In this document: positions 34,162 to 47,331 of the stretch, in pieces | Layout of the letters: each line of letters opens with the position of its first letter | Numbering within the stretch: position 1 is the stretch's first letter | DNA from: Proteiniphilum acetatigenes DSM 18083 | Lineage (GTDB): Bacteria; Bacteroidota; Bacteroidia; Bacteroidales; Dysgonomonadaceae | Direction of reading: 5' to 3' | Assembly (NCBI RefSeq): GCF_000380985.1 | Contig: NZ_KB905700.1 | Coordinates: 62,001-126,000, forward strand | DNA: 64,000 nucleotides | The notes under the pieces: model-generated | What the model was told of the DNA's origin: nothing | Database searches by the model: none | Seen by the model: the letters and a program-made list of their open reading frames with translations, nothing else | Made by a program: the position numbers and the translations under genes

Positions 34162-34506
34162 TCAGTTATTCTTGTCTTTCGGCTTAATACCACAGGCCTC
34201 TCCTGTGGGTTCATCTTTGGAACGATACCATATATCGTTGTAATCATCAGGGCGCCTGCGGAATTTTGCCAGGATATAGGAGCATGACGGGATTACCTGA
34301 TATCCATTCTCCCGTGCATAATTGACCATCTCATTGAATAATCTTCCGGCAATACCTTGCCCTTCCAGTTCTGGACGTACGCCTGTATGATAGGCGTTCA
34401 GCAGATTATCTTTTATTTCGAAATCCAGTTCAGCGACCTGCCGCCCTTCCTGTTCAATGAAAAAACTACCCCGGTTACTGTTGTCTATTCTGAATTGTAT
34501 ATCCAT
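34162..34506 (-). CDS. YjdJ-type GNAT family N-acetyltransferase
   Basis: A 114-residue small GNAT protein. The acetyl-CoA-binding block is VRPELEGQGIAGRLFNEMVNYAREN, with the preceding strand LNAYHTGV and the following YQVIPSCSYILAKF. No signal or membrane segment. The start is taken as ATG 34506; the frame could begin at TTG 34515. The substrate of this subfamily is generally unknown. Confidence 0.8.
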   Translation of the reverse strand: MDIQFRIDNSNRGSFFIEQEGRQVAELDFEIKDNLLNAYHTGVRPELEGQGIAGRLFNEMVNYARENGYQVIPSCSYILAKFRRRPDDYNDIWYRSKDEPTGEACGIKPKDKNN

Positions 34507-34723
34507 ATCATTCAATTTTAATTGTGACCTGTTTGTGACCTACTTTATTAAAACATATTCCTCTTCTGATTTGTTGAGTCGTAAAATGCTTTACTTGTTA
34601 AGCAAGGAAAAAAGATTGAACCAGTACGGAGTTTGTGGAAATGTTAAAAATGATATCCTTGTGAGTTGAAAATGAGATTTTTGTAATTTTATTCGAAAAA
34701 TACTATGAAAAAAGATATTATTT

Positions 34724-34757
34724 TTTGTGTAGAATGAACAAAAATGCATTACTTTTG
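34724..34757 (+). promoter_or_regulatory. Candidate promoter of the Cys/Met leader region
   Basis: TTTG (34724-34727), 22 nt, TACTTTTG (34750-34757). The -7 fits TAnnTTTG; the spacer is one nucleotide longer than the usual range. Transcription would start around 34764, 25 nt before the first leader GTG. Confidence 0.5.
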
Positions 34758-34788
34758 TTTTTGAAATATAAATAAAGACAAAACGATA

Positions 34789-34914
34789 GTGAGAATATTT
34801 TTACAAGATACAGCCGCAACAATATGTAACACTTCAGTAAAAAGGGGATGTTGCATGTGTATGTGTATGGACATGTGTATGTCCTTCAGGCGATGTTGTG
34901 TCGGAGTAGAATAA
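34789..34914 (+). CDS. Cys/Met-rich leader peptide 1
   Basis: A 41-codon mini-ORF starting with GTG. Codons 21-31 read CCMCMCMDMCM, ten of eleven being Cys or Met; Cys also occurs at 13, 36 and 37. No signal peptide or membrane stretch. Thirty-one nucleotides after the stop lies a strong intrinsic terminator. The start RIFLQDTAATIC resembles the start of leader 2 (KYFIQYNDNTC), so both arose by tandem duplication. The probable role is a ribosome-stalling leader sensing charged tRNA-Cys/tRNA-Met rather than a functional protein; a small metal-binding peptide is the main alternative. Confidence 0.7.
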   Translation: MRIFLQDTAATICNTSVKRGCCMCMCMDMCMSFRRCCVGVE

Positions 34915-34945
34915 AAGAACAATAGAATATATTACGTTAATATAG

Positions 34946-34984
34946 AACTCTCCTGGTACAATAAAATATCAGGAGAGTTTTTTT
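34946..34984 (+). terminator. Attenuator terminator 1
   Basis: AACTCTCCTG (34946-34955) pairs perfectly with CAGGAGAGTT (34970-34979), followed by seven T (34978-34984). It stands between leader peptides 1 and 2. The alternative partners of its 5' arm are CAGG (34887-34890) and GGAGT (34903-34907), at the end of leader 1. Confidence 0.88.
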
Positions 34985-35016
34985 ATCTTAGGGTTAGAGT
35001 CAATTAAAAAAATCAA

Positions 35017-35136
35017 ATGAATAAATATTTTATCCAATATAACGATAATACTTGTACTACATGTTGTATGACGATGTGTTGCTGTATGGCTATGTGTATG
35101 GTCAGGAATCATATCGTATTGGATAGGGGAAAATAG
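35017..35136 (+). CDS. Cys/Met-rich leader peptide 2
   Basis: A 39-codon mini-ORF starting with ATG. Codons 13-28 read CTTCCMTMCCCMAMCM: seven Cys and five Met in 16. The Cys/Met codons lie between two complementary RNA segments: region 1 (35032-35046, codons 6-10) and region 2 (35113-35124, codons 33-36). Region 2 can alternatively pair with region 3 (35172-35179) in the following terminator. The stop codon is 10 nt beyond region 2, where a terminating ribosome would mask it. This is the geometry of a ribosome-mediated transcription attenuator. Confidence 0.78.
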   Translation: MNKYFIQYNDNTCTTCCMTMCCCMAMCMVRNHIVLDRGK

Positions 35137-35165
35137 TATTATAATAAAAACATAAAACATAAAAA

Positions 35166-35201
35166 ACTCCACCGATACGGCTTCGGTGGAGTTTTTTTTT
35201 T
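35166..35201 (+). terminator. Attenuator terminator 2
   Basis: ACTCCACCGA (35166-35175) pairs perfectly with TCGGTGGAGT (35183-35192), loop TACGGCT, followed by ten T. The downstream gene starts 28-34 nt later, too close for an independent Bacteroides-type promoter, so that gene must depend on readthrough. CCGATACG (35172-35179) can instead pair with CGTATTGG (35115-35122). Confidence 0.92.
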
Positions 35202-35234
35202 GCTCAATATTAATTATTAAAAAAACGAATGACA

Positions 35235-36170
35235 ATGAAAAGATTTGGATTTATTAGGTTATCATTAGTAGTTGCTGTATTGTTTTCTACAAACGCTATA
35301 GCTCAGCAGAATTCCAGGGAAGTGATATACATTAAGAGTGCACGGTTTGCCATATCTCTAATAGAAAAATGGGCTTCTGAGTATGAAAAAGTGAACTCCC
35401 AAATAGAAATTAAGTTTGCGGAAGGGCAATCATCCGATGAAGATATCGATTTAAGCTTTATTACTTCCATCAATGAAGAGGGGGCTGAAAATGAAAATCA
35501 GATTGTATCATATACCGGACGATATGCTTTGCTTCCGGTTACCAATGCAGAAAATCCATTGTTAAACGAACTCAATCGTAAAAGATTGAACGGTAAAAGA
35601 TTGGAGAGTCTGTTCTTTGATAACGATATTCTCGATGAATATTCCGATTCGGCGAATAAGCAGAAACATGATATAACTATCTATTCGGGCACCAATACCA
35701 ATTCCTTTGCTGGAGCCTTTGCCTCTCACTTCGGATATTCTGCGGCTGATATCAGAGGACGAAAAATATCCGGCGACGATATTTTTCTTATAAATGCCAT
35801 ACAGAAAGATAATACGGGCATCACGTTTAATAATCTCAGCTATATCTTCGATATTGACACACGTGGATTGAAAAATGGCTTAGCCCTTATTCCGTTGGAT
35901 ATAAAAAAAGAACAACGTGAAATATTGCAGGAAGCCGATATCGACAAGACAATAGCCCTGCTCGAAAAAGAAAGCATATCACTTATTCCTGTTGAAAATA
36001 TCGGATTCGTTTATGAGGAGAATAATGTTCAGGCAAAAAGATTTTTGAAATGGATCCTCTCCGAAGGACAGAAATACAATCAGGAATACGGTTTTCTTAA
36101 GGCAGAAGAGACCATTTTGTCTGCACAGTTGAAGGAGATTGAGGATTTGCTTCTGACAGCTACTTACTGA
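35235..36170 (+). CDS. PstS-like periplasmic substrate-binding protein
   Basis: A 311-residue secreted protein with signal MKRFGFIRLSLVVAVLFSTNAIAQ. It resembles phosphate/sulfate-type solute-binding proteins (alternating alpha/beta; IEKWASEYEKVNSQIEIKFAEG near the start; the ligand-loop-like YSGTNTNSFAGAFASHFG). No ABC permease genes are nearby; instead susC/susD follow, so it may feed an outer-membrane rather than inner-membrane system, or act as a sensor. ATG 35235 begins the signal peptide; ATG 35229 is an alternative. It is the first gene after the double attenuator. The ligand is not identifiable. Confidence 0.72.
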   Translation: MKRFGFIRLSLVVAVLFSTNAIAQQNSREVIYIKSARFAISLIEKWASEYEKVNSQIEIKFAEGQSSDEDIDLSFITSINEEGAENENQIVSYTGRYALLPVTNAENPLLNELNRKRLNGKRLESLFFDNDILDEYSDSANKQKHDITIYSGTNTNSFAGAFASHFGYSAADIRGRKISGDDIFLINAIQKDNTGITFNNLSYIFDIDTRGLKNGLALIPLDIKKEQREILQEADIDKTIALLEKESISLIPVENIGFVYEENNVQAKRFLKWILSEGQKYNQEYGFLKAEETILSAQLKEIEDLLLTATY

Positions 36171-36288: not shown

Positions 36289-39200
36289 ATGACAAATGTA
36301 TCACTTTTTTACAGGAACAGAAGATTATCCCTCATATTAAAAAAAGGTATTTACGTTTTTTTAATCCTTCTTTTGTGTTCTTTCAGTACTTATGGGCAGG
36401 AAACCATACGGGGTACAGTCGTTGATAAAGAGAATCATCCGCTTCCCGGAGTTGCTGTTGCTATAAAATCGACCACTATCGGAACAGCAACCGATATAGA
36501 CGGGAATTTCAGTTTTACCACAGACCAATCGCTTCCGCTTACATTGACAATTAACCTTTTGGGTTATAAGACACAGGAAATCGATGTATATGAGGCAAAT
36601 GAAATCATAAGGGTAATATTGTCGGAAGATATTAATTATCTCGACGAAGTGGTTGTGGTAGGTTATGGTACAGCCAAAAAGTCCAGTTATACCGGATCGG
36701 TCGCTGTGGTTGGAGCCAGAGAATTGGAAAAACTGGAAATCACTTCTGTCGGGAAGGCTTTACAGGGGACGGTCCCGGGACTTCAGTCAGTTTCTTCCGC
36801 GGGTCAGCCCGGTAGCGATGCTTCGCTGTATGTGCGCGGGATAGGCTCAGTCAATGCTTCCACATCGCCTCTGTATGTTGTGGATGGTGTTCCCGGAGCA
36901 AATCCCAATCAGATAAGCGGGAAAGATATTCAGTCGATATCGATACTGAAGGATGCTACTGCAAGTGCCCTTTATGGATCGAGAGGCGCTAATGGTGTAA
37001 TCGTTATCACCACTAAATCGGGAAATCTCAACACGAAACCGGTAGTCAATTTTTCGAGTAGTGTGGGGTTTACGAGCCGCGCCGTCAAAGACTACGAGTA
37101 TCTCTCTGCAAACGAATATTACGAATTGCAATGGGAGGCCATCCGCAATACCCAGTCAGACCAGGGTAGAACTGCTGCAGAAGCTGCTCAATATGCGACC
37201 GATTACCTCGTTGACGGTGCACTTAAAGTGAATATCTACGGCCCTCAGTATCCTAAGCCTGTCGGTACGGACGGAAAATTGGTTGCCGGAGCAACGCCGT
37301 TATGGAATGACGACTGGGGTAAAGCCATCTCACGACTCGGAATACGTCAGCAATACGATCTGAGTGTCAGTGGTGGAAGTGCTAATACAAGATATTTCCT
37401 GTCAGGAGGGTATTTAAATGAAGAAGGATGGATAAGAACTGCTGAATACGAACGTTTCAATTTCCGTACAAACATACAATCGAAGATCAATAACTGGTTC
37501 GAGATCGGTGGGAATGCCTCACTTTCGTCGGGTTATCAAAGATCTCCTAACCAAAGTGACAGTAACACGGGAAACTTTGCCAATTTCCAGCGCCTTATTT
37601 CAAACATTTATCCGGTTTATGAACGTAATCCCGATGGTTCGTACGTGTTGGACGAAAACGGGAATAAAAAATGGGATTATGGCATATGGCGCCCGACTAC
37701 GGCTGCCAGCGGAGTGAATATCCTTGGAAATGCGGAACATGCCATATCGGGTAGTAAAACAGAGGCTGCATTGCTTAGCACAAACTTCAATATCACTTTT
37801 CTACCCGGTTTATTGTGGAAGACGACAGCAAGTGTCGATTACAGGACAGGAAGTTCGCACTCTTATTCCCATTCCTATTACAGCACGGGGGTAATATCCG
37901 AAGGTGCAGGCACTGCCAGCAGGAGCGCAAGCCGCACACTTAACTATACGGTAAACAGTTTTATCGATTATAGCTTTGGCCTGGGTAAATCACATTCCTT
38001 TAATCTCCTCGCCGGACCGGAGGTATATGTAAATAATATAACATCATTGTCAGGAAGCCGCACCGGCTTCCAGGTACTGGGAAAAACCGAACCTTCGGCA
38101 GGTTCCACAAGCGGCATCTTCTACGGAACTTCCGACAATTACCGGTTGGCAAGTTGGTTGAGTAAACTGGATTACAATCTTCTTGATCGTTATCATTTCT
38201 CTGCCAGTTACCGCCGTGATGGCTCTTCACGTTTTAGTAAGGAGTCGCGCTGGGGTAATTTCTGGTCGGTGGGCGCCGCCTGGAATGTGAAGAGGGAAAA
38301 TTTCCTGCAGCATGTGAGGGATATCGACAACCTAAACCTTCGTTTCAGCTACGGAGCACAAGGTAACGACAATGTGGGTAATTATGCTTACGGCGGTTTT
38401 TATGAGATCTATAACAGTCTGGATATGCTGGGATTATTGCCGTCTGAGCTTCCAACGCCCGAATTGAAATGGGAAACAAACTTAAATCTCAATTTCGGGA
38501 TAGATATTTCCCTGTTCGAGAACCGGTTGATCGCCCAGATCGATGTGTATAACCGGCAATCGAAAGACTTGCTGTTTGAAAAACCGCTTTCTCCTTCCAC
38601 CGGTTATAGCGGCATCAATGCCAATATCGGTTCATTGAGCAACAGAGGTATCGACGGGCAGATAACCGGTACTCCTATCCGGAATAAAGATTTCAATTGG
38701 GATATTACTCTCAACTTCGGACATTATACCAATAAAATAACCAAATTGCCCCAGGAAGAAATACTTACAGGTTCGATAGGACAATTCGGAAATACCAAGA
38801 AAATGGTAGAAGGTGGCTCGGTCTATGACTTTTATATCAAGGAATGGGCGGGAGTCAATCCTGAAAATGGGAAAGCCACATGGTATAAAGATATTGTTGA
38901 CGAAAATGGAAATGTAACCGGACGGACTACCACCGAAGATCAGACAGAAGCCACGCAGTATTTCCAGGGAAGTTCATTGCCTGATTTTTATGGTGGTTTG
39001 AACAACCGGATTTCCTATAAAGGATTTGAACTGTCATTCCTTTTGTCGTACAGTATAGGAGGTAAGATATTTGATGGCGACCAACCGTTTATCATGCATC
39101 TGGGATATGCGCCCGGCCGGAACTGGTCGAAAGAAGCACATACGCGTTGGACGCCGGAAAACAGGGATACCGATTTTCCCCGCCTCTCTTATGTCTCCGA

Positions 39201-39465
39201 CCCGTGGAATACAATTCCATCGACTCGATTTCTGTATAGCGCTACATATGCGCGCCTGAGAAATGTTGTTTTTTCCTATTCATTCCCACAGCAATTATTA
39301 TCGAACTGGAATTTATCGGATCTGAGACTGTATCTCACTGGTGATAATATTCTGACTTTCTTCGGCCATAAGGGATTGGATCCCGAGCAAACCGTTTCCG
39401 GTTCGACATTCTACCGTTATCCCGCACAAAAATCATATTCACTGGGAATTAATGTGTCATTTTAA
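36289..39465 (+). CDS. SusC/RagA-family TonB-dependent transporter of the peptidase operon
   Basis: A 1058-residue outer-membrane transporter. Signal peptide ends near residue 35 (CSFSTYGQ), then a carboxypeptidase-regulatory-like domain (GTVVDKENHPLPGVAVAIK), plug entry EVVVVGYGTAKKSSYTGSVAV, plug motif PLYVVDGVPGANPNQ...ISILKDATASALYGSRGANG, and the beta-barrel ending YSLGINVSF. It pairs with the SusD at 39479. The surrounding peptidases suggest that the imported ligand is a peptide or amino-acid derivative rather than a glycan. Expression is presumably under the upstream double attenuator. Confidence 0.96.
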   Translation: MTNVSLFYRNRRLSLILKKGIYVFLILLLCSFSTYGQETIRGTVVDKENHPLPGVAVAIKSTTIGTATDIDGNFSFTTDQSLPLTLTINLLGYKTQEIDVYEANEIIRVILSEDINYLDEVVVVGYGTAKKSSYTGSVAVVGARELEKLEITSVGKALQGTVPGLQSVSSAGQPGSDASLYVRGIGSVNASTSPLYVVDGVPGANPNQISGKDIQSISILKDATASALYGSRGANGVIVITTKSGNLNTKPVVNFSSSVGFTSRAVKDYEYLSANEYYELQWEAIRNTQSDQGRTAAEAAQYATDYLVDGALKVNIYGPQYPKPVGTDGKLVAGATPLWNDDWGKAISRLGIRQQYDLSVSGGSANTRYFLSGGYLNEEGWIRTAEYERFNFRTNIQSKINNWFEIGGNASLSSGYQRSPNQSDSNTGNFANFQRLISNIYPVYERNPDGSYVLDENGNKKWDYGIWRPTTAASGVNILGNAEHAISGSKTEAALLSTNFNITFLPGLLWKTTASVDYRTGSSHSYSHSYYSTGVISEGAGTASRSASRTLNYTVNSFIDYSFGLGKSHSFNLLAGPEVYVNNITSLSGSRTGFQVLGKTEPSAGSTSGIFYGTSDNYRLASWLSKLDYNLLDRYHFSASYRRDGSSRFSKESRWGNFWSVGAAWNVKRENFLQHVRDIDNLNLRFSYGAQGNDNVGNYAYGGFYEIYNSLDMLGLLPSELPTPELKWETNLNLNFGIDISLFENRLIAQIDVYNRQSKDLLFEKPLSPSTGYSGINANIGSLSNRGIDGQITGTPIRNKDFNWDITLNFGHYTNKITKLPQEEILTGSIGQFGNTKKMVEGGSVYDFYIKEWAGVNPENGKATWYKDIVDENGNVTGRTTTEDQTEATQYFQGSSLPDFYGGLNNRISYKGFELSFLLSYSIGGKIFDGDQPFIMHLGYAPGRNWSKEAHTRWTPENRDTDFPRLSYVSDPWNTIPSTRFLYSATYARLRNVVFSYSFPQQLLSNWNLSDLRLYLTGDNILTFFGHKGLDPEQTVSGSTFYRYPAQKSYSLGINVSF

Positions 39466-39478
39466 TTAAGATAAGATT

Positions 39479-41002
39479 ATGAAGCAGAAATTTATATACA
39501 TACTGGTCACTTTGTCATTATTTACGTCGACTTTATTTACGTCGTGCAGCGACAGTTTTTTCGAGACTTCTCCGGCAACCCTGATTACTACACCGGAGGT
39601 TTTCTCTTCCGAGGACAATATCGATGCCTTTATTAACGGGGCGATTCGTTATTTGATGGAAAACAGTACATCCCAGGATAATCCGGGACTTCCTGCCATT
39701 TTTCTTACACATGAAGTAATGGGTGAAGATGCTTTTGCACGTGACGGGCGTTATGGATTTCGTGATTCATATCCATACCGTGATCCGTTTGATAATACGA
39801 CAAGACGGGCTTTGTTCTTCTGGACTTTACAATACACATCGATTGATCATGCAAACAATATAATTGCCAATATTGATATCGATGAGAGTACAAAACAGAG
39901 TATAAAACATCTCAAAGGACAGGCTTATGCTTTACGCGCATACAATTATTTAAACCTGGTACGTCAGTATCAGTTTACATATGTGAAAGATGCGAATACA
40001 AAAGCTATTCCCGTCTATACCGAGCCTACGACTCCCAATACCAACCCCAATCCCCTGTCGACAGTCAGTGAGGTATATGATTTGATTATTAAAGATCTGA
40101 CGGAGGCGGAGAAACTGCTTCCAGGATTTGAACGTACAGTGAAGAACCGTCCCGATATTAACGTGGTGTACGGATTATTTGCCCGTACCTATCTTACGCT
40201 TGAAAATTGGGAACTTGCAGCCGAGTACGCAGCCAGGGCCCGTGCAGGCTATCCTGTTATGACGCCTGAACAATATACCGGAGGATTTAATGATGTGAGT
40301 AATCCGGAATGGATCTGGGGGCATCCGCAAACCCAGACTCAGAACAAGGGAGGCGCGTCATATCTGGCATATATAGAAACAACGCCTTACACCACAGATG
40401 CAAACGGAACGAATCTTTATTACGGTTACAACAGCATCATGCCTGATCCCCATTTTATAGCTCTGTTTGACGATGGGGATATACGTAAATCGCTTTTCGA
40501 GATAGCCACGCAACCGGCAGAGGCACTGTATAGGCATTACAGGTATAAGAAATTCAGGAATAAATATCCTAATCACGACGGGCATATTGTTCTGATGCGC
40601 TCTTCGGAAGTATTACTTATTGAGGCTGAAAGCAAAGCCCGGTTGAATGATGTGAATGGTGCCGTTGGAACGCTGAATGAATTGCGCCGCAACAGAAATC
40701 TTTCCGATCTGTCGGCAACCGATTTTGACAAGGAGGGTATCATCGATGAAATACTGCTTGAACGTCGGCGTGAACTCTGGGGCGAAGGTTTCCGCCTGTA
40801 TGATATTCTGCGCTTACAAACAGCTCCTGTCCGTCGGGAGACAACGGAGACTTTTGTAGATGATGAGGGTAGAACGGTGTCTGTAAGAGGACATTGGATC
40901 ACCAGATTCCCCGATGGTACCGATTTAGTGCCTAACAGTAAGTATTATCTTTTCCCTATTCCATTAAACGAGATCAATAACAATCCTAATTTAGATCTGT
41001 GA
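39479..41002 (+). CDS. SusD/RagB-family lipoprotein of the peptidase operon
   Basis: A 507-residue surface lipoprotein (LFTSC, Cys23) with the SusD fold: SEDNIDAFINGAIRYLM, helical repeats (HLKGQAYALRAYNYLNLVRQYQF, VVYGLFARTYLTLENWELAAEYA), and the C-terminal RSSEVLLIEAESKARLNDV...LNELRRNRNL...ERRRELWGEGFRLYDILRL. It is 13 bp from susC and so tightly coupled. It binds substrate at the lid of the SusC channel. Confidence 0.95.
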   Translation: MKQKFIYILVTLSLFTSTLFTSCSDSFFETSPATLITTPEVFSSEDNIDAFINGAIRYLMENSTSQDNPGLPAIFLTHEVMGEDAFARDGRYGFRDSYPYRDPFDNTTRRALFFWTLQYTSIDHANNIIANIDIDESTKQSIKHLKGQAYALRAYNYLNLVRQYQFTYVKDANTKAIPVYTEPTTPNTNPNPLSTVSEVYDLIIKDLTEAEKLLPGFERTVKNRPDINVVYGLFARTYLTLENWELAAEYAARARAGYPVMTPEQYTGGFNDVSNPEWIWGHPQTQTQNKGGASYLAYIETTPYTTDANGTNLYYGYNSIMPDPHFIALFDDGDIRKSLFEIATQPAEALYRHYRYKKFRNKYPNHDGHIVLMRSSEVLLIEAESKARLNDVNGAVGTLNELRRNRNLSDLSATDFDKEGIIDEILLERRRELWGEGFRLYDILRLQTAPVRRETTETFVDDEGRTVSVRGHWITRFPDGTDLVPNSKYYLFPIPLNEINNNPNLDL

Positions 41003-41098: not shown

Positions 41099-42094
41099 AT
41101 GAAGAAGTATTTATTATTAATCGTGATAGCTTTTGTAGCATTTTCATGCAAGCAGCAAAGCAGCAATAATCTGATCCTCAACGGTAGTGTTGAGGGAGTA
41201 CAATCCGGTACGGTCTATTTGCAGAAATTCAGTAACAAAACATTTTTTGTAATAGACTCAGCAGCAATAACAGACGGGAAATTCCACCTTTCCAAAGATA
41301 TACCACTTCCTGAGATTTACGGATTAACATTAGATACATTGAAAAATTCCTTTCTCGTCTTTTTCGATGAAAATCCGGTGACGCTACATCTTGATTCTTC
41401 GCGTTATTACCGTAATACAAAAGTAGAAGGTTCGGAGTTGCACGATTTGTTTGTGGAATACAAAGCGCAACGCCATGTGAAGATCGACTCGTTTATCCGT
41501 CAACATCCTGCTTCACTGGTATCGGCTTATGCCCTTTATCGCGATTTTTCCTACCGGTTGTCACCTGAAGAGATCAGGTCAAATATTGAATTGCTTGATC
41601 CTTCTTTATGGAAAACGCCATACGTACAAACATTGGAAGAACTGATAAGTACTCTCGAAGTGGTAGCGATCGGTAAGCAAGCACCCGATTTTACGGTAAA
41701 TGATACGGAAGGGAATGCAGTAAAACTTTCGGACTATTTGGGCGAAGAATATGTGCTGCTTGACTTCTGGGCATCGTGGTGCGGACCTTGTCGTAGAGCA
41801 AATCCGGGTAAAGTGGCCGCGTATGCTAAATATAAGGACAAAGGTCTTGACGTTTTTTCTGTATCACTTGACAAAAGCAGGGAGAGATGGTTGGAAGCCA
41901 TTGAAAAAGATAACCTCACATGGACGCATACTTCCGACTTGTTACATTGGGATAGCGAACCGGCAAAATTATACGGTGTAAGAGCTATTCCTGCCAATTT
42001 CCTGATAGATAAAAACGGTACTATCGTTGCCAAAAACCTGAAAGGGGAAGACCTGGATAAAACATTGGATGATCTGTTGACAGTTGACAATTGA
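41099..42094 (+). CDS. TlpA-like lipoprotein thioredoxin with DUF4369
   Basis: A 331-residue lipoprotein (FVAFSC, Cys17). Residues about 25-125 are a DUF4369 beta domain (LILNGSVEGVQSGTVYLQKF), and residues 190-325 a redoxin domain with GKQAPDFTVNDTEG and the active site WASWCGPC (Cys228, Cys231). It is a periplasm-facing disulfide reductase. In the operon context it could reduce cystine or disulfide peptides, which would fit a sulfur-amino-acid theme. The last residues and the stop codon are encoded by the 14-bp repeat that follows. Confidence 0.88.
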   Translation: MKKYLLLIVIAFVAFSCKQQSSNNLILNGSVEGVQSGTVYLQKFSNKTFFVIDSAAITDGKFHLSKDIPLPEIYGLTLDTLKNSFLVFFDENPVTLHLDSSRYYRNTKVEGSELHDLFVEYKAQRHVKIDSFIRQHPASLVSAYALYRDFSYRLSPEEIRSNIELLDPSLWKTPYVQTLEELISTLEVVAIGKQAPDFTVNDTEGNAVKLSDYLGEEYVLLDFWASWCGPCRRANPGKVAAYAKYKDKGLDVFSVSLDKSRERWLEAIEKDNLTWTHTSDLLHWDSEPAKLYGVRAIPANFLIDKNGTIVAKNLKGEDLDKTLDDLLTVDN

Positions 42095-42220: not shown

Positions 42221-44740
42221 ATGAAAAATGTATTCACTATAATTGTTATTTCGTTTGTTGTACTGTCAACGGTTCATGTCAGGGCAGAGAAAACTGATTA
42301 TTTCTTTGCGCCGGAAATAATATTCGATTCAACAATTCCGACTCCGGAAGAGTTTTTAGGTTATGAGATCGGTAGCAGGATTACCGAACACAGCCGGATC
42401 AATGCATATTACGAGAAACTCGCCGAACTATCCGACAGGACTTCTCTGATAGAGATCGGGCAAACGCATGAAAAGCGTAAGCTGTATGTACTGATCGTTT
42501 CATCACCCGAAAATATAAAAAATCTCGACAGGTATAAAGAAGCCCGCCAGAGAGTTCGCCAGGGAGAAAAGCCGGACAGACCGCTGATCGTCTTCCTGGG
42601 AAATACGGTGCATGGCAATGAAATTTCTTCTTCAGAAGCAGCGTTATTGTCGGCTTACTATTATGTAGCAGCACAAAACGATTTCGTAAAGAAACAACTT
42701 GAAGAGGGAATCTATTTTATCGATCCCGTCCGCAATCCCGACGGACAGGAGCGCTTCGCCTCATGGGTGAACTCCAATACAAGTGTAAATACCTGTAATA
42801 TTTCCCAGTTCGACCGTGAACATACAGAGGGTTGGCCCAGAGGCCGCGGCAACCACTATTGGTTTGACCTCAATCGCGATTGGGTGAATATCGTGCATCC
42901 CGAAAGTAAGGCCCGGGTCGCGTTTTATCAGGATTGGCTGCCTCATGTGCAGGCTGACCATCATGAAATGGGGACAAACAGTACCTTCTTTTTCGAACCG
43001 ACTGATCCTGATGGGAATGAGAGCCGCTTTGTTCCGCAATCAACCTATCAGCTTAACCGGCTTTTTGCAGATCATTACGCCAAAGCACTGGATAAAGTCG
43101 GTTCTTTTTATTATACAAAAGAATCTTACGACAATAAAAACCCGAATTTCGGTTCTACTTATCCCGATTATAACGGAGGTGTGGGAATCCTTTTTGAGCA
43201 AGGGTCGTCGAGAGGTCTGAAACAGGAATCGGATAACGGGATCGTAACGCTTCCCTTTACCGTAAGGAACCAGTTGGTAACAAGCATTGCGACGGTTGAT
43301 GCGGCTATAGCGCATAGAGAGGCTTTGTTTGATCTTCAGAAGGAATTTTTTACCCCGCTCCGGGGAAGGGAGGCTTCGAAATCATATATTATCGGTGATA
43401 GTTATGATTTGTCCCGATTGCATAAATTCGTTCAGTTGCTGCTCGACCACCGACTGGAAGTATATGAAAATTCAAACGACGTCACGATAGATAGCGTGAA
43501 ATATGAAAAGGGGAAATCCTATCTCATTCCGGCAGGACAAGCTAACAGCGCATTGGTGGGAATTATTTTCGACGATATAAAAGATTATGAAGATGCTTCA
43601 AAGTTAGGTTATGGAGCCGGTTTTTCCGTCGCTTATTCCACCGGGCTTTCTTATAATGTAACAACCTCTTCGCCACGGGGAGCAAGGATACAGGCATTAC
43701 CGCAAGTATATACCGGCAGTTTGCAACCGTCGGAATATGCCTACCTGGTGGATTATCGCGACTCAAAAAGCCAACAATTGCTTTTCAGGCTTTTGGAGAA
43801 AGATATTCTGGTTAAATCGGCCTTTAAACCGTTCTCCATAAGTACGGATAAAGGCGTGAAGGATTTCTCTTATGGTAGTCTGCTTATTCCCGTAAAAAAT
43901 CAAACCACCTCTTCCTCCGAATTATATGCGATATTGAAAGAACTGGCGGAACAGGAAAAAATTGATATTATTCCTGTCTCTACAGGCCTTAATGTGAAGG
44001 GAGTCGACCTGGGTAGCAGTGCTTTCAAGCGGATAGAAAAACCGAAAGTACTGGTAGTGACCGGCGGCGATGTATCATCGCTTGAAGCCGGCGAAGTGTG
44101 GCATCTGTTCGACCAGCAATTAAAATATCCGTTGGTACGCGTCGACTTTAATGTTTTCGGACGGGTTCCTCTGCATGAATTCAACCGGATTGTCTTTGTA
44201 AGCGGCAATTATTCGTTTTTGAATGAATCGGATATTGACAACGTAAAAAACTGGGTTAGAAACGGAGGTGTGCTGATCACCCTTAACGGAGCTTCCCGGT
44301 GGGCAATAACCAATAAAGTTGTTACTGCGAGATTTGCAGAGAGACCTGATACTGCCGCACAAAAGCAGGATGTAAATATCCGCTCCCGCTCGTTTGAAAG
44401 ATTTGCCACATCCATATTTCAGACTAAAATAGACCTGGAACATCCCCTGGCTTTCGGGCTGACAAGCGCGAAACTGCCGGTAGTACGGGAAAGCGCCTTG
44501 TTTCTTGCTCCTTCATCCAATGCGGTGTCAGTATATACTGACGATCCCTTGCTCAATGGTTATATCTCTGCCGAACATCTGGAGAGGCTGAAAAATTCTG
44601 CCTCTATTCTGGCTTATAACTCCGGCAGGGGGAGTGTGATCCTCTTTGCCGAAGATCCGTTGTTCCGTGGAATATGGGATGGAACGAGCCGCACTTTTGT
44701 GAATGCGGTTCTATTCGGAAATAATATTTCCGGAAGATAG
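42221..44740 (+). CDS. M14-family zinc carboxypeptidase, secreted
   Basis: An 839-residue exported protein (signal to about residue 22, STVHVRA). The peptidase M14 domain spans about 45-370: zinc ligands His131 and Glu134 in GNTVHGNEISSSE, RNPDGQERF, the third-ligand region HVQADHHEMGTNSTFFFEP, and a likely catalytic Glu in GILFEQGSSRG. The remaining 450 residues include a glutamine-amidotransferase-like (flavodoxin-like) region with VLVVTGGDVSSLEAGEVWHL, as in large Bacteroidota M14 proteins. It trims C-terminal residues of peptides outside the cytoplasm. Confidence 0.9.
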   Translation: MKNVFTIIVISFVVLSTVHVRAEKTDYFFAPEIIFDSTIPTPEEFLGYEIGSRITEHSRINAYYEKLAELSDRTSLIEIGQTHEKRKLYVLIVSSPENIKNLDRYKEARQRVRQGEKPDRPLIVFLGNTVHGNEISSSEAALLSAYYYVAAQNDFVKKQLEEGIYFIDPVRNPDGQERFASWVNSNTSVNTCNISQFDREHTEGWPRGRGNHYWFDLNRDWVNIVHPESKARVAFYQDWLPHVQADHHEMGTNSTFFFEPTDPDGNESRFVPQSTYQLNRLFADHYAKALDKVGSFYYTKESYDNKNPNFGSTYPDYNGGVGILFEQGSSRGLKQESDNGIVTLPFTVRNQLVTSIATVDAAIAHREALFDLQKEFFTPLRGREASKSYIIGDSYDLSRLHKFVQLLLDHRLEVYENSNDVTIDSVKYEKGKSYLIPAGQANSALVGIIFDDIKDYEDASKLGYGAGFSVAYSTGLSYNVTTSSPRGARIQALPQVYTGSLQPSEYAYLVDYRDSKSQQLLFRLLEKDILVKSAFKPFSISTDKGVKDFSYGSLLIPVKNQTTSSSELYAILKELAEQEKIDIIPVSTGLNVKGVDLGSSAFKRIEKPKVLVVTGGDVSSLEAGEVWHLFDQQLKYPLVRVDFNVFGRVPLHEFNRIVFVSGNYSFLNESDIDNVKNWVRNGGVLITLNGASRWAITNKVVTARFAERPDTAAQKQDVNIRSRSFERFATSIFQTKIDLEHPLAFGLTSAKLPVVRESALFLAPSSNAVSVYTDDPLLNGYISAEHLERLKNSASILAYNSGRGSVILFAEDPLFRGIWDGTSRTFVNAVLFGNNISGR

Positions 44741-44844: not shown

Positions 44845-44940
44845 ATGCTGAAAAGATATATTGAAAATTTATCGCTGGTTTTGACATTATCATTGTTGGC
44901 CGTATATGCAGGCAATGATAAATCCGGTAAAAAGAAATGA
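44845..44940 (+). pseudogene. N-terminal remnant of an AbgB-like M20 peptidase gene
   Basis: A 31-codon ORF encoding a signal-peptide-like start (LSLVLTLSLLAVYA) and then GNDKSGKKK. Its TGA stop is followed one base later by the C39 gene ATG. The sequence resembles the beginning of Bacteroidota AbgB-like amidohydrolases, and a fragment resembling the C-terminus of the same family lies after the C39 gene (45727-45986). I therefore read it as the 5' stump of a broken gene; a genuine small secreted peptide is the alternative. A 24-codon ORF (44790-44864, other frame) overlaps it and is probably noise. Confidence 0.45.
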
Positions 44941-44941
44941 T

Positions 44942-45724
44942 ATGCAAATCAATATAATTATTACCGCTGTATGTATTGTTTTTGCCACAGGCAGCTGTAC
45001 AGGATCAACTGTCAGTGATAAGACTGTGTCATTTCAAAACAAGGAATATATACTTTCGGATTATACGGATGTACATAAAATTTCACACGACTCCGTATTA
45101 CCGCTGGATGGGGCGGCAAAATCAGAACGAAGGTTGGATATCAAAAATTCGCCTTACTTCACGTCCTATGATTTTTACAATATGGAAAGTGAGGGAACCC
45201 TTGTGCTGTTGAAGAATTTTAAAACGATCCAACAGGCTACAGAGGTCACCTGTGGTCCCGCATGTGTGCTTATGGTACTGGAATATTTCGGTAAAAAGGG
45301 GAATTACAATGAGAAAATGCTGAAAGAATTACAGGGTACTGACCAGGATACCACTTATCTGAGGCATTTGCTGAACATTTTTGAGGCGGTCGGAGGATTT
45401 AAATATGTTTCTACATTCGACTATAAGAAAAAGGAAGATACTCCCCAAAATTTATTCCCTGATTATTTGAAACGTGATATTCCCGTTATTGTCGGCTCCA
45501 ACGAATGGGAAGGGCATTGGCAGGTGGTAATCGGTTACGATACGATGGGGACGGAAACAAAAGCAGATGATATACTTATTTTAGCCGACCCATACGATAC
45601 AACCGATCATAATCAAGACGGATATATTATCCGTTCGTTTTGTCGATTTTATGAGGATAATTGGAAAAACCGGTATGATCCTGATTTTGACCGGGGGCTT
45701 TTTCTTGCTGAATGGCCGGAGTAA
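44942..45724 (+). CDS. C39-like papain-fold peptidase lipoprotein
   Basis: A 260-residue lipoprotein (FATGSC, Cys19). The catalytic domain shows Cys104 in ATEVTCGPACVLMVLEYFG, His192 in EGHWQVVIGYD and Asp216 in ILADPYDT, the triad pattern of peptidase C39-like domains. It probably cleaves peptides in the periplasm or at the surface. ATG 44942 gives a proper lipoprotein signal; the frame can be read from ATG 44906, but that start lies in the remnant ORF. It sits exactly between two pieces that look like one disrupted M20 gene, suggesting insertion or replacement. Confidence 0.85.
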   Translation: MQINIIITAVCIVFATGSCTGSTVSDKTVSFQNKEYILSDYTDVHKISHDSVLPLDGAAKSERRLDIKNSPYFTSYDFYNMESEGTLVLLKNFKTIQQATEVTCGPACVLMVLEYFGKKGNYNEKMLKELQGTDQDTTYLRHLLNIFEAVGGFKYVSTFDYKKKEDTPQNLFPDYLKRDIPVIVGSNEWEGHWQVVIGYDTMGTETKADDILILADPYDTTDHNQDGYIIRSFCRFYEDNWKNRYDPDFDRGLFLAEWPE

Positions 45725-45726
45725 AA

Positions 45727-45986
45727 AAGATTGTTTAGTAGGCGATATAAACACACTGAAAGAAGTAGAAGAGATAAAGCCATTGGAAGAAGAAAAACCC
45801 TCATTGGGCGGTAGATCAAGTGATGTAGGAGATGTATTTTCTCTTACGGCTATCGACCTGTATGCCAATCCAAAATTGATTGAAGCGGCCAAAGCGGAGT
45901 TTGAAGAACGAAGGGGTAAAGATTTCACCTATGTTTCTTTACCTGGAGACCGTGCTCCTGCCCTGGATTACCGGGTGAAAAAATAA
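45727..45986 (+). pseudogene. C-terminal remnant of an AbgB-like M20 peptidase gene
   Basis: The frame translates to a segment ending SLTAIDLYANPKLIEAAKAE...YVSLPGDRAPALDYR, resembling the C-terminus of AbgB-like M20 amidohydrolases. An upstream piece, GGRSSDVGDV, resembles a metal-site region that in intact proteins lies well before this end, so an internal deletion is also present. The open frame extends back into the C39 gene only by chance. There is no plausible own start. Confidence 0.6.
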
Positions 45987-46029
45987 ATTCACCAAATAAT
46001 TGACGAATAAAAAATTAAAAAAAAGTATT

Positions 46030-47331
46030 GTGAAACAAATAGTAAGAAAAGGGTCTTTCTGTAGAATGATAATAATAACGGCATTCATTATTTCTTCCCA
46101 GTTTTCCATCCCTGCACAAGAGACGATGAAAAAAGAAGCCGTTCTGGAAAAAGTAAATCAGATAGACAGTTATGTGCGTCAGATAAGAGGTTATTTGCAT
46201 GAACGTCCGGAATTATCTGCTCAGGAATTCGAAACCAGTCGCTTTCTTCAGGAAGAAGTAGAGAAACTGGGGTTGTCCGTCACAAAAGTAGAAGGGACGG
46301 GGTTTTATGCCGTGTTGGATACCCGCCGTCCCGGGAGAACTATTGGATTGAGGACAGATATCGACGGCCTGCCTATCGAAGAAAATCCGTTCAATTTAAA
46401 ACAGAAAAAACAGTGGATATCAAAAAATGAAGGCGTTTCTCATGCTTGCGGACACGACGGACATATGGCAATCCTGCTTGGCAGTATTAAAATCCTCAAC
46501 GATCTGAAAGACCAGCTTACAGGTAAAATAGTATTTATATTTGAAGAGGGAGAAGAGACCAATTCCGGTATTCATGCAATGATAGAAGCATTGCGGCCTT
46601 TGCAGATTGATGCGATTTATGGTAATCATTTGAATTCCAGATTGAATACGGGAGAACTTTTCATTCACGAAGGACCGATTATGGCGGGTACGGGAACCAT
46701 TGCGTTTGACGTGATTGGCAGAGGCGGACATGCTTCCCGCCCTGATTTGTCGATCAATCCGATTTTTGCTGCTGCAAATATATTAAACGGAATTTCAATA
46801 GCCTGGAACAATCAGCGTGACATCACCAAGACCCTTACATTGGGCGTTACACAAATACAGGGTGGAGAAACCTATAATGTAATTCCCAATTCGGTCTATA
46901 TTGGGGGTACAATACGTTTCTTCGACAAAGAAGAAGGAGAAAAAGGATTTGAATTGTTGCGGAAAGTAGCTGAAGATATTGCACGAGCACACAATTGTAC
47001 GGTTACATTTCATGATAAGATGGGGGTCGCTTTGAATCCGGTAGTCAATGATCCGGTATTGACGGTATTTACCCGCAATGCCGTAAAGGAGATATATCCT
47101 GATAAAGTTATTTCCGGAGAACAGCATATCTGGTATGCAGCTGAAACTTTTGCGAGATATAGCGAACTGGCTCCTGCCGTTTTTCTCTTTGTCGGCATCA
47201 AAAACGATGAACTCGGTAGCGGAGCGGAACATCACAATGACCGTTTCGATCTGGATGAAGATGCGCTGCAATATGGCGTGGGAGCAATGGTACAGTTTGC
47301 AGTGCAATACTTGCATTCATACACGGAGTAA
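46030..47331 (+). CDS. M20-family amidohydrolase/aminoacylase, secreted
   Basis: A 433-residue exported metalloamidase if started at GTG 46030, which gives a basic n-region and hydrophobic core (MIIITAFIISSQFSIPAQ); ATG 46066 is the other option. Metal-site motifs: RTDIDGLPI, HACGHDGHMAIL, FEEGEETNSG and GAEHHNDRFD, with the dimerisation domain GRGGHASRPDLSINP. The family hydrolyses N-acyl amino acids or small peptides. With M14 and C39-like enzymes upstream, it would complete the conversion of peptides to amino acids. Confidence 0.9.
   Translation: MKQIVRKGSFCRMIIITAFIISSQFSIPAQETMKKEAVLEKVNQIDSYVRQIRGYLHERPELSAQEFETSRFLQEEVEKLGLSVTKVEGTGFYAVLDTRRPGRTIGLRTDIDGLPIEENPFNLKQKKQWISKNEGVSHACGHDGHMAILLGSIKILNDLKDQLTGKIVFIFEEGEETNSGIHAMIEALRPLQIDAIYGNHLNSRLNTGELFIHEGPIMAGTGTIAFDVIGRGGHASRPDLSINPIFAAANILNGISIAWNNQRDITKTLTLGVTQIQGGETYNVIPNSVYIGGTIRFFDKEEGEKGFELLRKVAEDIARAHNCTVTFHDKMGVALNPVVNDPVLTVFTRNAVKEIYPDKVISGEQHIWYAAETFARYSELAPAVFLFVGIKNDELGSGAEHHNDRFDLDEDALQYGVGAMVQFAVQYLHSYTE

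Follow-up and report, generated by a model that had tools for sequence, protein, structure and literature searches.

Two complete leader units stand in series before a SusC/SusD and peptidase operon of Proteiniphilum acetatigenes DSM 18083, and each combines a short open reading frame rich in cysteine and methionine codons with an intrinsic terminator whose 5' arm can also pair with the tail of that frame. We propose that both act as ribosome-mediated transcription attenuators of the trp/his type and respond to sulfur amino-acid supply, most likely through charged tRNA-Cys with methionine as a second input, and from the sequence we put the probability of this reading at about 0.85. Throughout, the window is the whole stretch of 64,000 nucleotides that was analysed; the leader and operon features described below all lie on its + strand.

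Tandem leader units and the operon behind them

Leader ORF 1 (34789–34914) encodes 41 residues from a GTG start, and leader ORF 2 (35017–35136) encodes 39 residues from an ATG start. Each contains a cluster of putative control codons, the first at 34849–34881 (CCMCMCMDMCM, codons 21–31 of ORF 1) and the second at 35053–35100 (CTTCCMTMCCCMAMCM, codons 13–28 of ORF 2). The Cys/Met densities given in the initial annotation, 10 of 11 codons and 12 of 16 codons, respectively, are exact. Across the six frames of the 64-kb window, we observed eight or more Cys and Met codons in 27 of approximately 68,300 stop-free stretches of 16 codons, and all 27 lie inside ORF 1 and ORF 2. Among 20 leader units from this and related loci, 480 residues include 89 Cys and 91 Met; because the two codons are equally frequent, Cys is not singled out by the leader sequence.

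Intrinsic terminator 1 spans 34944–34981, with a T-run on to 34984, and terminator 2 spans 35161–35197, with a T-run on to 35201; each has 15 pairs including G–T pairs. Both had been described as perfect 10-bp hairpins, a description that holds for the core and fails for the full arms, as complementarity between the 13-nt arms of terminator 1 is 92%. The gap between leader stop codon and terminator is 19–31 nt in a set of 20 units examined for tail–arm pairing. The first in-frame ATG of the first structural gene (35229–36170) lies 31 nt 3' of terminator 2, in agreement with the distance of about 30 nt noted earlier, and an alternative second ATG is present at 35235. A putative −7 promoter element (TACTTTTG, 34750–34757) fits the Bacteroidota −7 consensus TAnnTTTG and is the single strict match within 900 nt upstream of 35229. 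Since the strict-consensus scan finds no further box 3' of 34750 up to 35229, a second promoter is not suggested, consistent with the earlier proposal that the first gene lacks a promoter of its own. ORF 1 starts 32 nt 3' of the −7 box and is therefore not leaderless by position.

A known RNA family was considered and rejected: a search with the families of Rfam 15 (T-box, SAM riboswitches and others) gave no match at the gathering score in the whole window, and a permissive scan of 34500–35400 returned only sub-threshold matches, the best with an E value of 0.011 on the minus strand. No plasmid DNA relatives of 34700–35300 were found by distant blastn.

The first structural gene is predicted to encode a protein with a periplasmic-binding-protein (PBP) fold, PstS-like by structure. 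The protein has no Pfam or NCBIfam match; its model has a mean pLDDT of 83.9 and query-normalised TM-scores of ~0.43–0.60 among the 50 matches listed, with phosphate-binding proteins of 10–15% identity as the best structural matches in the PDB. The genes that follow encode a SusC/RagA-type TonB-dependent transporter with plug and carboxypeptidase-regulatory-like domains (36289–39465), a SusD/RagB-type lipoprotein (39479–41002), a TlpA/ResA-like thioredoxin-fold protein with DUF4369 (41099–42094), an M14 zinc carboxypeptidase family protein (42221–44740), a C39-like peptidase family protein (44906–45724) and an M20 amidohydrolase/peptidase (46000–47331), whose membership of the same transcript is putative. 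PDB sequence searches gave no relatives of the C39-like protein at E ≤ 0.01 and no match for the PBP profile or the M14 protein. The combination of a thiol-reductase-like protein with peptidases suits the import of Cys-containing peptides, which are a putative substrate.

The order PBP, SusC, SusD, TlpA, M14 is kept in five loci of the same genus (L070–L073 and L075) for which ~10.9 kb of downstream sequence was covered, a range beyond which the last operon genes lie; 30 of the 79 loci were tabulated, and more distant ones mostly keep the PBP gene and a divergent SusC. We also observe a 111-aa ORF at 45651–45986 that overlaps the end of the C39-like gene and has no Pfam or NCBIfam match; five of the 30 tabulated loci have 39–46% identical matches 3' of their PBP gene.

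Under the proposed mechanism, RNA polymerase would start at one promoter near 34750 and pass leader ORF 1 and then ORF 2. With Cys and Met plentiful, the ribosome would reach the stop codon and cover the last ~25 nt of the ORF, so that the terminator would fold and transcription would end. With these scarce, the ribosome would stall in the Cys/Met cluster, and the free ORF tail would pair with the terminator 5' arm once this had been made, allowing the polymerase to read on. Both terminators would have to be passed before the PstS-like/SusC/SusD/TlpA/peptidase operon could be made, and a low basal level with a steep response would follow from two terminators in series. A two-signal response had also been suggested; a tandem that answers one and the same signal is more likely, given that Cys and Met codons are mixed alike in the two ORFs.

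Antiterminator pairing, modelled stall geometry and conservation

In unit 1, the antiterminator strand in the ORF tail (34893–34910) pairs with the terminator's 5' arm at −13.2 kcal/mol (p 0.064 against shuffled tails), and in unit 2 the corresponding strand (35113–35130) does so at −16.2 kcal/mol (p 0.0005). Such pairing is present in all 25 units compared, with energies of −11.5 to −21.6 kcal/mol; p is at or below 0.05 in 23 of the 25 and at or below 0.01 in 16, the two above 0.05 being the first unit of the window and that of L015 (0.105). The comparison comprises 14 units of the window-operon type, eight from termite-gut Tannerella-type loci, two before a PF01053 gene and one before another SusC. 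It leaves out L012, which is identical to the window, L099 and L125, which have a terminator and no leader passing the filter, and L100, which has a leader and no terminator by the scan; L026 (34 nt upstream only) and L214 (incomplete) were dropped. The scan missed the unit 1 terminators of L014 and L019, which were positioned by eye. In 24 of the 25 units, the exception being unit 1 of L023, the tail pairs better with its own arm than with every arm of the other family. The eight termite-gut Tannerella-type units form a second version of the tail–arm pairing in unrelated-looking sequence.

Within a 14-row alignment, 92.9% of cells are paired for an 8-bp antiterminator, as opposed to 30.4–50.9% when it is slid along the alignment, and both sides have changed at three pairs. 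The covariation is modest, since three doubly changed pairs are reached in 67 of 500 shuffles and the covariation score in 42; the paired percentage is reached in 11. The terminator is paired in 97.4% of cells, with both-side changes at six pairs; because the arm is common to both structures, part of the antiterminator pairing may reflect constraint on the terminator. Among the terminator-type units, the ORF tail RNA keeps its pairing despite tail peptides as different as IVLDRGK, CCVGVE and RTAYDS.

Seven units were modelled with an assumed ribosome leading edge of 15 nt. A stall within the Cys/Met cluster leaves about 8–13.5 antiterminator pairs, with the exception of the last Cys of the L110 cluster, which leaves 3.1, and a ribosome at the stop codon leaves none in all seven. 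Tail Cys codons close to the stop leave 0 to 5.6 pairs. Once the transcript is complete and at equilibrium, the terminator prevails over the antiterminator in 7/7 units, and the switch must therefore be kinetic. Given the tail–arm pairing and the stall geometry, the leader would work like a trp/his-type attenuator. Ribosome-mediated attenuation, proposed initially from the layout, is the best-supported reading; the antiterminator, which the initial annotation lacked, is present and conserved, and the predicted stall geometry fits.

Relatives of the first gene occur in 27 of 101 genomes of the family, 11 of the 27 in the same genus. The comparative check came out in favour of the initial annotation: the mini-ORFs and terminators are kept in all ten same-genus loci (nine distinct) that retain the first gene and have a readable upstream region, the eleventh (L026) having too little upstream sequence to be included. 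Six of the ten carry tandem units (the window, G053, G088, G075, G069 and G077) and four a single unit (G054, G065, G055 and G074). G053 matches the window exactly over 960 nt and is not an independent case; counted by distinct loci, the tandem is found in five of nine. A leader-peptide profile at E ≤ 1e-6 matches 10 of 39 genomes of the genus, and these are exactly the ten with the leader-bearing loci.

Between the window and L013, ORF 1 differs at nine codons (five synonymous, four non-synonymous), none of them a Cys or Met codon, and ORF 2 differs by frame-preserving insertions and deletions. First-unit terminators are split from second-unit ones with a support of 0.994, and the second-unit ORFs form a clade with a support of 0.996; because units 1 and 2 group separately in both respects, the duplication predates the species compared. 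L015 and L017 combine second-type terminators with ORFs outside the second-unit clade, a pattern that a deletion fusing ORF 1 to terminator 2 would explain.

Two further leaders were observed outside the operon. A copy of leader unit 2 with its terminator (L188:1441-1638, in G088) precedes a second SusC ~10 kb from the first operon. The genome of the window holds another Cys/Met leader, MVNIYTPYNYNRISICDMMCCCMHMSGGYIVSG (L189:1498-1599), for which no terminator was found; it is followed at the contig end by what appears by eye to be the start of an insertion-sequence transposase, and is possibly an interrupted attenuator.

The proposed sulfur signal and its alternatives

Of 79 orthologous loci fetched, one with only 19 nt of upstream sequence (L123) was left out. 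Among the remaining 78 genes, 34 are preceded by a Cys/Met-rich leader ORF, as against 12 of 1560 shuffled upstream regions and 1 of 78 antisense ones; the 34 include the L127 leader (MWCIYCCCF), which is probably a chance occurrence. Besides the terminator-type leaders, we observe a second class, here called MRMC-type, in Dysgonomonas, Bacteroides luti, Paludibacter and others, in which Cys codons lie near the stop and are preceded by Arg-Met. All 17 distinct MRMC-type leaders examined (L021, L022, L024, L025, L027-L031, L033, L078, L087, L096, L101, L118, L136 and L138) carry two or more Cys codons in final position or close to it. Their Arg codon is CGA in 17/17, across genera and with varying neighbours, and the sole CGT (L132) sits in a terminator-type leader; the invariant CGA suggests a role of the rare codon or one at the RNA level. 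No intrinsic terminator was found by the scan used between MRMC-type leaders and their genes, and C exceeds G in the 80 nt downstream in 16 of the 17. Rho-dependent control of these leaders is a guess.

The pattern ATGCGAATGTGYTGY has 12 sites in 11 of 393 order-level genomes, as against five for the reversed control. Four of the 12 are in a relevant context, two before a PBP gene, one before MetY and one before SusC, and the others look like chance. In another family, an MRMCCCC leader (L216, in G340) lies 121 nt upstream of MetY (O-acetylhomoserine sulfhydrylase; TIGR01326 above cut-off).

Evidence on the signal also comes from a palindrome, ATACC-N8-GGTAT, which as WATACCRN6YGGTATW is present in five of the six Dysgonomonas genomes searched. 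There it lies upstream of the PBP operon, of a pyridoxal-phosphate (PLP) enzyme of Cys/Met metabolism (L149, L160) and of cysK followed by metY (L151), as well as upstream of an SDF-family symporter (L161) and a SusC (L153). The CysK scores above its NCBIfam cut-off; the PLP enzyme is above none and is assigned by PF01053 only. Five other Dysgonomonas palindromes (L150, L152, L156, L162 and L163) have no sulfur context and were set aside as probable chance matches.

At 9 of 10 bases, the palindrome occurs at 60 of 78 orthologous loci and in 26 of 1560 shuffles, and it lies exactly 40 nt 5' of the −7 box in 42 of the 45 pairs that are 30–50 nt apart. The arrangement can be seen in the upstream regions of L070-L148, for example in L078, with the palindrome at −448 and the box at −408. 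In most Bacteroidales loci, the palindrome before the PBP gene is likely the activator site of a predicted sulfur regulon.

Leaders and this operator are distributed unevenly. Of the 34 loci with leaders, 29 also have the operator, and the five without it (L070, L071, L072, L076 and L080) all belong to the same genus as the window; the site called as operator at L073 is an imperfect match at −577 that probably arose by chance. Thirteen of the 78 loci have neither, nine of these being the most distant rows (L140-L148). No palindrome was found in 900 nt at the operon of the six tandem loci, and L016 and L018 retain one 77 nt from the −7 box. The strict pattern is absent from the window's genome, and the cysK gene of that genome has ATACCATAATTATGCTAT, a 9/10 match located 40 nt before its −7 box. 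Five of eight cysK orthologues examined have such a site. Because cysK keeps this match, the regulator is probably still present, and the change of control has affected only some genes. The strict scan of nine same-genus genomes gave three sites in two genomes and missed C-flanked sites and the 9-of-10 cysK sites; the reported counts come from the relaxed scan.

In G088, and likewise in the window's genome, a further leader with a terminator precedes the PF01053 PLP enzyme of Cys/Met metabolism. The profile matches of these leaders are weak (E values of 0.148 and 0.036), so the case is built on the ORF, the terminator, the tail–arm pairing (p 0.025 and 0.044) and the context. In 10 genomes of the family, the PF01053 gene has a leader with terminator in two, the palindromic operator in four and neither in four, one of which has a Cys-containing ORF and no terminator; both occur together in none. 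The leaders before this enzyme, together with the operator shared with cysK–metY, point to a Cys/Met signal, and operator and attenuators appear interchangeable within one sulfur regulon.

We can extend this picture tentatively, although we hold the extension as a whole to be somewhat less probable than even. The operator, with its ATACC-N8-GGTAT palindrome 40 nt 5' of the −7 box, and Cys/Met leader attenuators would be interchangeable across a Bacteroidales sulfur amino-acid regulon, of which some lineages would have kept both, others the operator alone, and Proteiniphilum would have swapped the operator at individual genes for attenuators, later duplicated in series to restore tight control. 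The second leader class (..CGA-AUG-(N)-Cys codons-stop, no intrinsic terminator) would work by Rho-dependent termination or by arrest at the nascent chain or CGA codon.

The clusters hold as many Met as Cys codons, as would be expected if the signal were methionine alone, or a general sulfur limitation sensed mainly at Met codons. We consider this unlikely, since Met starvation should also block initiation, every leader needing Met to start, and since the MRMC-type leaders place at least two Cys codons at or near their ends.

Binding of metal by the peptide is improbable. The nascent or finished Cys/Met-rich peptide would, on this account, bind Cu(I) or another soft metal and thereby alter leader translation and expression of the TonB-linked importer, or would itself be a small metal-binding protein. 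Cu(I) ligands do resemble runs such as MCMCM and CCC, and leader-peptide control by copper is reportedly known in other phyla. However, the order and spacing of Cys and Met differ between units, the terminator-type units keep the RNA pairing of the tail across different tail peptides, and no metal gene was found near the operon among nine proteins examined. The leader before a Cys/Met-metabolism enzyme and the alternative operator before cysK–metY indicate sulfur and not metal.

It is also quite improbable that the terminators are fixed dampers or the 3' ends of small RNAs, with leader ORFs that regulate otherwise (by reinitiation, translational coupling or Rho) or not at all. The stem has enough strength for unaided termination, and MRMC-type relatives do without an intrinsic terminator by the scan used, yet the cluster ends exactly where a stalled ribosome would begin to mask the antiterminator, and ORF and terminator have been retained jointly and duplicated jointly. 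Chance ORFs in AT-rich intergenic DNA, for which one could cite the shortness of the ORFs, their absence from the annotation and the GTG start of ORF 1, are ruled out by their conservation in relatives, by the window scan and by the excess of leaders over shuffled upstream regions.

Comparison with known attenuators

Should the attenuation reading be correct, amino-acid-sensing attenuation in Bacteroidota would reach beyond biosynthesis into nutrient import by SusC/SusD systems, and a set of transporters of uncertain substrate could be given a Cys/Met supply signal. It would also provide a clean case of regulatory replacement, in which one genus controls by RNA attenuators the very genes that another controls through a protein operator, making the how and why of such swaps testable. 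A same-signal serial pair would be a simple natural way of steepening a response.

Classical ribosome-mediated attenuators control the trp, his, leu and thr amino-acid operons. The units described here share with the trp/his type a run of control codons, an antiterminator strand in the ORF tail, a terminator that uses the same 5' arm, and, on the proposed reading, the logic of starvation. They differ in that the classical systems govern biosynthesis operons, whereas here Cys and Met codons precede an import and peptidase operon of the SusC/SusD kind, with two complete units in series.

Mycobacteria are said to have polycysteine leaderless uORFs (Canestrari 2020). We rejected this type for the window because ORF 1 is not leaderless by position and terminators are present. 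According to the passages of one study covered here, Actinobacteria have Cys-run leaders, and intrinsic terminator and antiterminator are missing from the cys leaders of Mycobacterium (PMC1262725). As far as these passages go, the leaders would have in common with ours the use of Cys codons to sense Cys supply before sulfur genes, and the MRMC-type leaders resemble them in having Cys codons at the stop, pyrimidine-rich flanks and no terminator. They belong to another phylum, and the window's units differ from them in mixing Cys with Met and in having an intrinsic terminator and an antiterminator.

For Bacteroidota, there are clues that leader peptides attenuate amino-acid biosynthesis operons in Flavobacterium psychrophilum (PMC9723704), and in B. 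thetaiotaomicron short ORFs occur within long 5' UTRs, which that study marks as unvalidated (PMC7366714). In the passages covered, PMC13236596, PMC4833913 and PMC12596196, like the other papers cited in this section, describe no such Bacteroidota system, and the open PMC literature, which mostly lacks subscription papers, yielded no report of comparable Cys/Met leaders in the phylum.

The closest parallel to the tandem layout is the mgtCBR leader of Salmonella, in which, by the covered part of the source, mgtM and mgtP answer different signals (ATP and proline) in what is called a singular example (PMC3641672). There, as proposed for the window, a single leader contains two short ORFs, and every ORF has an attenuator to itself. 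They differ in that mgtCBR responds to two signals, whereas the two units of the window carry the same codon types and do not suggest different ones.
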